Source of the DNA: a bacterium
Lineage (GTDB): Bacteria; ARS69
DNA length: 16,990 nt
Direction of reading: 5' to 3'
Assembly: GCA_025774805.1 (NCBI GenBank)
Contig: JALGZR010000126.1
Coordinates: forward strand, 481 to 17,470
Part shown: positions 2,989-16,148 of the stretch, piece after piece
Numbering within the stretch: the stretch's first letter is position 1
Layout of the letters: each line of letters begins with the position of its first letter
Notes under the pieces: generated by a model
Told to the model about the DNA's origin: nothing
Database searches by the model: none
What the model saw: only the letters and a program-made list of their open reading frames with translations
Position numbers and translations under genes: made by a program

Positions 2989-3412
2989 CGCGCCACTCCT
3001 TCTCGAGGCCAGTGTACTCGATGAGGGGCAAGAGTGCGGGGCGGAGGGGCAGGGTCTCGGCGCGGGGTGCCGCACGCCGGGGATAAGCCTTTGCGTCCTC
3101 CCGATCCGGGGAATCACGAAGGCGCAGCCCCCCGTTACTCGCCCGGACTATTCATGAAGGGCCGTCGCGAGATCGTGGAGACGCCCACCGGACGGGCACC
3201 CGCAGGGGCTCGAACCCGAGTCGTATCTGAACGATACGTCGCAGGGTGCGAGACGTCGTTCATGAATAGTCCGGGCCAGGAAGTGCGAGTCGACTCGAGC
3301 GCCCGGGGAGGTGCGTAACGGATTGGCCTGAAGACATGGGTGACACTTTCGGTTGTTTGCCGAAGACGGTGCGGCTGCAGGCTGGCTTGATGCCGAGAGG
3401 GAGAATCGTTCG
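2989..3412. other. 424-bp gene-free interval holding a fold-back element
   Basis: The left end carries the modE Shine-Dalgarno (minus strand) and presumably its promoter, which I could not define with confidence. The middle is the fold-back element at 3141-3276. The right end (3277-3412) is the upstream region of the PEP mutase-family gene and ends with a GAGGGAG ribosome-binding site near 3396-3402. No credible coding frame is seen. Confidence 0.5.
3141..3276. mobile_element. 136-bp fold-back/MITE-like element with 18-bp perfect terminal inverted repeats
   Basis: GCCCGGACTATTCATGAA at 3141-3158 is exactly repeated in inverse orientation at 3259-3276. The interior is also nested-palindromic: GCACCC (3196-3201) pairs with GGGTGC (3244-3249), and GTATC (3223-3227) with GATAC (3233-3237). 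It contains no credible ORF. The layout fits a non-autonomous miniature inverted-repeat element or a cruciform-forming intergenic repeat. No clear target-site duplication is visible. Confidence 0.75.
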
Positions 3413-5114: not shown

Positions 5115-5630
5115 ATGAAGAGACTCCCTGTTCTCGCCCTGGCGGCAGGGCTGTTGGCCTGTTTGGTCGCCCCAGGTTCTGCGCGGGAGAACACACTCTC
5201 TCTCGGCTCAGGGCAGCGCTCGCCGGAGGCTCGAATTGAAGAGGTAGAGTGGATTGCCGGGCACTGGACCGGCAGCGCCTTCGGCGGTGTCGGCGAGGAG
5301 GTCTGGTCGCATGCCCGTGGCCGCACAATGATGGGGATGTATCGACTCATCAAGGATGAGCACCTGGCTTTCTATGAGTTACTCACGATCACTGAAGAAG
5401 ATGGGACGCTCGTGCTGAGACTGAAGCACTTCAACGCCGACTTGACAGGATGGGAGGAGAGGGAAGAGGTCGTGACGTTCCCCCTGGTGAAGCTGGAACC
5501 CGATGCGGTCCATTTCGACGGGATGACGTTTCGCCGGGTGGACGAAGACAAGCTGCAGATCTTCGTGCGGCAGCGAGGAGAAGACGAGCGCCCTCGTGAG
5601 GTGGAGTTCGTGTACGACCGCGTCGAGTAG
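5115..5630 (+). CDS. Exported DUF6265-like protein
   Basis: A 171-aa protein with an N-terminal export signal: MKR followed by a hydrophobic core, and a plausible signal-peptidase site after Ala23 (GSA/RE). An alternative lipobox (LLAC, Cys16) cannot be excluded. The mature part fits the small single-domain beta-rich family I know as DUF6265: VEWIAGHWTGSAFGG…EEVWSHARGRTMMGMYR, then FYELLTITEEDGTLVLRLKHFN, then VKLEPDAVHFDGMTFRRV. Function is unknown; members are periplasmic or secreted, with a calycin-like beta pattern. The start is well supported by GAGGAGAGG about 8-10 nt upstream of ATG 5115. It has no obvious operon partner; the next gene is a small ORF interrupted by a mobile element. 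Confidence 0.75.
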   Translation: MKRLPVLALAAGLLACLVAPGSARENTLSLGSGQRSPEARIEEVEWIAGHWTGSAFGGVGEEVWSHARGRTMMGMYRLIKDEHLAFYELLTITEEDGTLVLRLKHFNADLTGWEEREEVVTFPLVKLEPDAVHFDGMTFRRVDEDKLQIFVRQRGEDERPREVEFVYDRVE

Positions 5631-5658: not shown

Positions 5659-5994
5659 TTGGCTCGAGCGGCGATCGAGAGGAGCCGATCGGATCGCAAG
5701 AGAGATGCGATTCTCTCGGGGATCCGCTACGCGCGATTGCGAATGGACTGGTGCCGGATGGCCCCGCCGGAGCGAGCCACCCGGAGCGAGGAACGAAGGC
5801 GGGCCCACGACTCGTTCATCGACGACTTGGACATCCCGAGCCGGCAGATGGCTGAGCTCGGCGAGGACAACTCCCGGAGGGCGGTCCCGGGCGACGACCG
5901 AATGCGGATCGGTGACTTCGCCTGCTCCGTGCACTGCATCCTGGGGAGCCGAGCTAGCCTTGATCTTCCAGAAAATCTCGGCGGAAACCGCTGA
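5659..5994 (+). CDS. Small conserved-looking protein whose C-terminus is replaced by a fold-back insertion
   Basis: The reading frame shows coherent helical sequence: RDAILSGIRYARLRMDWCRM, RSEERRRAHDSFIDDLDI, SRQMAELGEDNSRR, then RIGDFACSVHCILGSRA. From memory this resembles a small uncharacterised family ending in DFACYxHCLLGLRAR; I cannot name it securely. The native frame ends at Ala (codon 5953-5955), exactly where the fold-back element begins at 5956. Translation then runs 13 codons into the element before stopping at 5994. Joining 5955 to 6147 gives GCT-CGT-TAG, an Ala-Arg-stop ending. Several residues look degraded relative to the family as I recall it. The true start is unclear; TTG 5659 is a placeholder, and the frame is open back to GTG 5596, which overlaps the previous gene. 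Confidence 0.4.
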   Translation: MARAAIERSRSDRKRDAILSGIRYARLRMDWCRMAPPERATRSEERRRAHDSFIDDLDIPSRQMAELGEDNSRRAVPGDDRMRIGDFACSVHCILGSRASLDLPENLGGNR

Positions 5995-6146
5995 TGCTCG
6001 CACGATAGCACGTCATCCGCGACCGTGCTCGCCCTCGCCAATCCTCACTTATCGTGAGATATGCTCCGGTTGGCTCGGGCTGTGCGCGGCCCCGGCTGAC
6101 GCACTCTCGCGCGTTTCCACGCAAGATTCTCTGGAAGATCAAGGCT
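5956..6146. mobile_element. 191-bp fold-back/MITE-like element inserted at the 3' end of a small gene
   Basis: AGCCTTGATCTTCCAGA at 5956-5972 is perfectly inverted at 6130-6146, and similarity continues imperfectly for about ten more bases inward. The interior folds too: GCCCTCGCCAA (6031-6041) pairs with TTGGCTCGGGC (6070-6080) with a central mismatch, and CTCAC (6044-6048) with GTGAG (6054-6058). There is no transposase ORF. The flanks rejoin to complete the interrupted gene, which defines the ends to within a base or two; no clear target duplication remains. The interior GTGAGATATGC (6054-6064) also matches one end of the unrelated repeat family at 13288 and 16015. Confidence 0.75.
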
Positions 6147-6304
6147 CGTTAGCCGGAGGGGCGGCGGCCTTCCCGCCGGCCAGGTACCCTCTCGACCCCA
6201 CCCACCGGCCCCCTGACCCCCGAGGAAGACCGGTCGCGGGCGTCGCCCCGATCCGCTATGCTGGTCCGCCTGTGCCCGCCGTCCCCTGAACCTCGGGAGT
6301 CGCG

Positions 6305-13142: not shown

Positions 13143-13389
13143 CTCCGGCCTCCTTTCGGGGGAGTACGACTCGGCCGTCCCCATGGACGGCCCGAGTGGC
13201 ACCAAGGGGGTCGCGGCAGGCCCGGTGACTCCCAGGCTTGCGTTCGCGGGTATTACACCTCGGGGGGGATTTTGTGACTTCCCCGTCTGGCCTGCATATC
13301 TCACCAGTCTCTGCTGCGGCAGCGGCTCGCGACGAGCCTCGTGAGAAATGCAGGCCAGGGAAACGAGCGGAGGAAGTTGACCGGTCCGC
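13024..13389. other. 366-bp leader/intergenic region upstream of the WD40 gene
   Basis: Read on the minus strand, the region holds repeat copy B (13357-13288), then a GC-rich segment with two predicted hairpins: GAGTCACC pairing with GGTGccACTC about 13230-13195, and GGCCGTCC-ATGG-GGACGGCC at 13192-13173 extended by CTCG/CGAG with one bulge. After these come CCGAAAGGAGG and the 40-codon ORF. An ACGCAAGCC motif near 13237 recalls c-di-GMP-I riboswitches, but the required upstream GGCAAACC segment is missing. It is best described as a possible structured 5' leader. Confidence 0.35.
13288..13357. repeat. Copy B of the GCCTGCATWTCTCACC palindromic repeat, 70 bp
   Basis: The ends are inverted: TGGCCTGCATATCTCACCA at the left, and GTGAGAAATGCAGGCCA at the right, which reads TGGCCTGCATTTCTCAC on the other strand. 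The core includes CTCTGCTGCGGCAGCGGC and GCTCGCGACGAGC, themselves able to fold. A 42-nt block starting at the left end is identical at about 41 positions to copy C in reverse. It lies 32 bp beyond the FecR gene stop, where it may also act as a terminator. Confidence 0.8.
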
Positions 13390-15952: not shown

Positions 15953-16014
15953 TCCACTATCCGGCCTGCGAGGTCCGCTGAATGCAGCGCCTTCCCTTCG
16001 ACTCCGTTTCCCTC

Positions 16015-16093
16015 TAGCCTGCATTTCTCACCAGGCTCTTCGCGAGACGGTGGCGAGCCGCTGCCGCAGCAGAGGCTGGTGAGATATGCAGGC
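16015..16093. repeat. Copy C of the GCCTGCATWTCTCACC palindromic repeat, 79 bp, inverted relative to copy B
   Basis: Begins TAGCCTGCATTTCTCACCAG and ends CTGGTGAGATATGCAGGC. Reverse-complemented it matches copy B through the first 42 nt with about one difference, including CTCTGCTGCGGCAGCGGC, then carries about 10 extra bases (around CGTCTCGCGAAGAGCC) before the shared right end GTGAGAAATGCAGGC. It lies between the lipoprotein terminator hairpin and the short-chain dehydrogenase gene. Confidence 0.8.
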
Positions 16094-16148
16094 GAGGATG
16101 CCGGGTTCGTCGACGGCCCCGCACACAGGAAAGAACAGGAGAGAACCC

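Follow-up and report, generated by a model that had tools for sequence, protein, structure and literature searches.

A probable IS1380-type MITE with CTAG-like target duplications at the 3' end of a small gene from an ARS69 bacterium

In the stretch of DNA analysed here (16,990 nucleotides, hereafter the window), a 187-bp fold-back element, CC...GG, separates the final two codons of a small gene; it occupies positions 5958 to 6144, and no strand is assigned to it. Judged by its ends and by the flanks of its copies, this element is very probably a non-autonomous MITE of the IS1380 type, presumably moved in trans by an IS1380 transposase at CTAG-like sites. It is a further member of an established class of mobile element: short, multi-copy and transposase-less, with terminal inverted repeats and target duplications of constant length, as is usual for MITEs. 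Movement would depend on an IS1380-family DDE transposase, which would bind the two inverted ends (CCTYGATC...), move the 187-bp unit and insert it where a CTAG-like target has been cut with a stagger, so that 4-bp duplications flank it; preferred targets would be YTAR-like sites, above all CTAG. In the present case, the target would have been CTCG or CTAG near the 3' end of the gene, and the element now supplies 12 residues and a new stop instead of the terminal Arg and stop.

The boundaries follow from a comparison of copies. Approximately 23 related copies, full or partial, were found across the organism's own 5.1-Mb genome (284 contigs searched), most of them 78–97% identical to the window copy; they have sharp common ends and diverge outside them, which fixes both ends of the element. 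Partial copies are broken off at varying points, and within the flanks that were fetched none of them continues into a longer interior closed by another end. When four genomes of the same family were searched for the element, only one partial copy was found, in genome G004 (contig C202, positions 128–214); it is diverged (83%), and its CTAG junction seems to provide the TAG stop of a gene reading toward the element.

At the left end lies a terminal inverted repeat (5958 to 5991, plus strand; CCTTGATCTTCCAGAAAATCTCGGCGGAAACCGC), which is matched at the right end by its counterpart (6111 to 6144, minus strand; starting CCTTGATCTTCCAGAGAATCTTGCG when read inward), and in both the terminal 12 nt are IS1380-like. 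An inverted-repeat search defined end arms of 36 nt that are 81% complementary. Aligned with its own reverse strand, the complete element gives a 66% match; it is a long, nearly full-length, imperfect palindrome. Folded as single-stranded DNA, the element gives z = -4.4, and none of 200 shuffles folds equally well; the fold-back structure is therefore more than chance. No open reading frame overlapping the element matches a protein family, and its 187 bp hold no transposase gene. This strong fold, together with 10 base pairs between the arms in which changes on both sides have been kept across the 12 copies compared, would suit a structured RNA or terminator-like repeat that is kept for its function and whose mobility is incidental. 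However, the paired changes mostly separate two subfamilies (nine copies vs. three) and thus represent few events, for which an RNA function is not required. Inverted arms are needed for transposition in any case, no Rfam match was obtained, and the sites of the copies are unrelated to one another and have target duplications at their borders, all of which makes a retained RNA highly improbable.

Fourteen copies retain both ends; 11 of these are flanked by identical 4-bp duplications, and the remaining three differ by one mismatch (CTAG/CTCG in the window copy, L001; TTAG/CTAG in L005; CTAG/CTAA in L010). The duplicated sequence is mostly CTAG, but CTAA and TTCA also occur, and the commonest junction has the form CT|AGCC...GGCT|AG. 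In this form alone, AG and CT could belong either to the element or to its target. The copies at other sites are decisive: L008 and L018 have CTAA on both sides and L011 has TTCA on both sides, and because the two flanks have changed together, AG/CT must be part of the duplication and the element proper must be CC...GG, 187 bp long. In the window, the left duplication is CTAG (5954 to 5957, plus strand) and the right one is CTCG (6145 to 6148, plus strand). CTAG is scarce in this DNA, with five occurrences in the 17-kb window, three of which touch these repeats.

The window sequence reads as the preliminary description has it: GGG-AGC-CGA-GCT up to 5955, AGCC...GGCT at 5956–6146 (taken there as a 191-bp element), and CGT-TAG at 6147–6152. 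That description placed the ends correctly except for the duplication; the unit proper is the 187 bp at 5958–6144, and as 191 bp is the sum of the element and one duplication, its removal rejoins the reading frame. The further statements that the element lacks an evident target duplication, and is in this respect unusual for a DDE-type MITE, do not hold: the family makes 4-bp duplications, the window copy retains three of four bases, and both ends and duplications match those of IS1380-family elements. In an alternative reading, AGCC...GGCT (191 bp) would have been inserted conservatively, with no target duplication, between CT and AG or CG by a site-specific recombinase acting on a circular form. 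Such a process would explain the window copy (CT|CG), L005 and L010 without later mutation and would fit an ancestral Arg codon (CTCG). Nonetheless, three copies (L008, L018 and L011) have an inner left dinucleotide other than AG, and in each of them it is identical to the right flank; L011 also has an inner right dinucleotide identical to its left flank. A duplication predicts this agreement, which would otherwise be a coincidence. By our count, approximately five changes would be needed, vs. three under duplication, and IS1380 elements with nearly identical ends do make 4-bp duplications. Conservative insertion is accordingly considered very unlikely. With transposition and duplication as the preferred reading, the Arg with which relatives of the gene end (see below) points to CTCG as the original target, the left duplication having changed later to CTAG; if the gene did end in Arg, this target was an untypical one. 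Alternatively, the target could have been CTAG in a gene ending in Ser, with a later change on the right side.

The assignment to IS1380 was based on annotated IS1380 elements from plasmids of mostly environmental and food bacteria, the ends of which were read by a script. Since this script favoured CC starts and equal flanks, single weak cases are not to be over-read, and it is the recurrence of a common right end that constitutes the evidence. In actinobacterial elements (plasmids of M. chubuense, Streptomyces, Rhodococcus, and Paenarthrobacter), the ends are of the form CCTCGATC(T/G)TTC and the 4-bp duplications are CTAG (2), TTAG (3), CTAA (2), and TTAT (1). In the M. chubuense element (pMYCCH.01), the ends CCTCGATCTTTCGTGAGTGAG agree with each other over at least 16 bases and the flanks are CTAG/CTAG; seven further actinobacterial elements have right ends of the CCTCRATYNTTC type, more diverged left ends, and duplications of CTAG (one), TTAG (three), CTAA (two), and TTAT (one). 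Of the 12 elements in the second batch, three (L151, L153 and L157) could not be assigned clear ends and two (L155 and L158) gave ambiguous readings. The window family shares 10 of its 12 terminal bases with these transposase-bearing actinobacterial elements and resembles them in its ends (CCTCGATC.TTC) and in its 4-bp CTAG/TTAG/CTAA duplications. The correspondence with an IS1380 parent extends to both the terminal sequence and the duplications, which in that family are 4–5 bp long and, in high-GC members, CTAG-like. Bacillota members are different, having CCTGAAT-type ends and, in the clear cases, 5-bp duplications. A 5-bp duplication is also known for IS1247, which belongs to the IS1380 family (PMC3281130).

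The element itself encodes no IS1380 transposase (NF033539/PF13701) and is therefore not an IS1380 insertion sequence but IS1380-type by its ends only; with its 187 bp, long palindrome and an interior unlike that of any insertion sequence found, it differs from its presumed parents. Within its own genome, the only transposase trace found is a degraded C-terminal fragment of an IS1380-family transposase (111 aa; contig C17, locus L138, 1306–1641; NF033539, E = 1.1e-19; PF13701, E = 1.1e-18), which adds to the IS1380 likeness; the end of this fragment has no similarity to the element beyond that of shuffled sequences. An autonomous insertion sequence with the ends of the element was found neither in this genome, nor in the four sister genomes, nor, by end-pattern search, among 84,980 species. 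The Gelidibacter matches of that search were discarded as chance, as the DNA read contained no CTAG context or second end. It appears that the mobilising IS1380 transposase is no longer intact in this assembly, although an assembly of short contigs can lose an autonomous partner. CTAG-like targets are also used by relatives of IS630, IS481, IS5, and IS701, and a MITE derived from another such family (IS701, IS5/IS427, IS630, or IS481) has to be considered on that account. It is nonetheless unlikely: the 10 of 12 terminal bases and the 4-bp CTAG/CTAA/TTAG duplications match IS1380, searches of the genome gave no IS701 match and no DDE_Tnp_1 above the cut-off, and TTCA/TTCA at L011 speaks against a duplication of TA only.

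The interrupted gene also speaks for insertion. Its body (RYARLR...IGDFACSVHCILGSRA) extends from 5659 to 5955 on the plus strand in frame 1 (...RYARLRMDW...AHDSFIDDLDIPSRQMAELGEDNSRR...RIGDFACSVHCILGSRA), and its start codon is uncertain, being either an in-frame GTG at 5596 or a TTG at 5659 (the latter chosen by eye). The upstream neighbour (5115–5630) encodes a DUF6265 protein (PF19780, E = 1.5e-39), the 3' end of which the small gene would overlap if it started at GTG 5596. As the preliminary description had it, the filled frame reads 13 alien codons, i.e., 12 residues (SLDLPENLGGNR) and a stop, and the gene's own final codon, CGT (Arg), and its TAG stop have been displaced to 6147 to 6152 on the plus strand. 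The uninterrupted orthologue that had been called for was found in genome G102 (55% identity, E = 2.6e-15) and terminates in IGDFACRLHCLLGLLAR-stop, i.e., ...GLLAR-stop; a distant relative from a Mammaliicoccus sciuri plasmid (29%, E = 7e-3) terminates in IGDFAVYLNYISGLNNR-stop, i.e., ...GLNNR-stop. In both proteins, and in the rejoined window gene (GSRA-R-stop), 12 residues follow IGDFA and the last of them is Arg, so that the proposed original ending ...A-R-stop is supported at matching length. That the gene naturally ends in the sequence of the element might be proposed, as no stop is met in the first 12 codons read inside it. However, the repeat is present at approximately 22 other sites, and the Arg and stop displaced here are where the sequence terminates in two relatives of the gene, which makes a natural ending extremely unlikely. 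The earlier reading of a mobile insertion that splits the last codons of a gene is thus upheld by the gene's conserved ending, by the duplications and by the common ends of the many copies, whose alignment, likewise suggested, yielded the exact ends (5958–6144) and the preference for CTAG-like targets.

The family of the small gene is rare, occurring in only two of 386 sampled genomes and being absent from the four same-family genomes searched, which therefore have no empty site at this locus; comparisons with Pfam, NCBIfam, PHROGs, PDB, and phages gave nothing significant. Searches of viral contigs yielded no relatives either; one match (L076) was rejected because it comprised 17 residues within an 868-aa protein. 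Judging from the reading frame, the insertion would exchange the terminal Arg for a 12-residue tail, and the product may be altered, whereas a loss of function is only conjectural.

Among dispersed repeats of bacteria, the element is comparable to MITEs such as MITEAba12, the Coxiella MITEs and TIMEs, which are short, multi-copy and non-coding, have inverted repeats and duplications, and are presumed to be mobilised in trans (PMC10969869; PMC4133298); it is similar to them in size class, copy number, inverted repeats, duplications, and lack of coding capacity. TIMEs, however, have Tn3 ends and 5–6 bp duplications (PMC4133298) instead of IS1380-type ends and 4 bp. REP/BIME sequences, which RAYT (Y1) transposases move, are likewise palindromic, dispersed and multi-copy, whereas the window element has target duplications and no Y1_Tnp protein (PF01797) was found in the genome. 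Membership in the REP/RAYT class is contradicted by this result, just as derivation from IS701 is by the lack of an IS701 transposase in the genome. No paper in the literature searched combines IS1380 with CTAG, and no IS1380-derived MITE is mentioned in the titles and abstracts that searches for IS1380 and MITEs listed; this is weak evidence of novelty.

Two other repeat families in the window have the CTAG-CC end in common with this element. The first is an abundant REP-like palindromic family (CTAGCCTGCATTTCTCACC...GGTGAGATATGCAGGCTAG) at 13287–13358, 16014–16096, and approximately 1464–1510; from 325 initial candidates across the genome, approximately 40 places were scored; the repeat exists as a short form (approximately 80–100 bp) and a longer one (approximately 180 bp), and its CTAG-CC ends weakly resemble IS1380-type ends (up to 9 of 12 bases). 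Eight of the 23 copies of the 187-bp family directly adjoin a member of this family whose ends supply the CTAG, whereas the local background predicts approximately 1.3 such cases (binomial p = 2e-5). The other is a fold-back element (CCCGGACTATTCATGAA...TTCATGAATAGTCCGGG) at 3139–3278, whose end matches the left ends of actinobacterial IS1380 elements at 9 of 12 bases; a second copy, in the organism's own genome (contig C55, L057), has CTAG before it and lacks the right side. It is tempting to suppose, though the chances are slightly below even, that at least three fold-back families of unrelated sequence in this genome (the 187-bp family, the CTAG-CCTGCATTTCTCACC palindromes and the CTAG-CCCGGACTATTCATGAA element) are MITEs with the CTAG-CC end and target of a single, since lost IS1380 transposase, the 187-bp family preferring the CTAG ends of the palindromes as landing sites.

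As an insertion it is unremarkable: a small gene has exchanged its final residue for a tail of 12. The analysis nonetheless gives, for a lineage of which few relatives have been sequenced, a MITE with precise boundaries, probably of IS1380 type. It also gives a target rule for high-GC IS1380 elements (4 bp, CTAG-type), and an intact mobilising IS1380 element would be expected to have the ends CCTYGATCYKYCAGAAAATCTCG. With a bounded MITE and a target rule, the transposase that dispersed the palindromic repeats of the genome can be sought.
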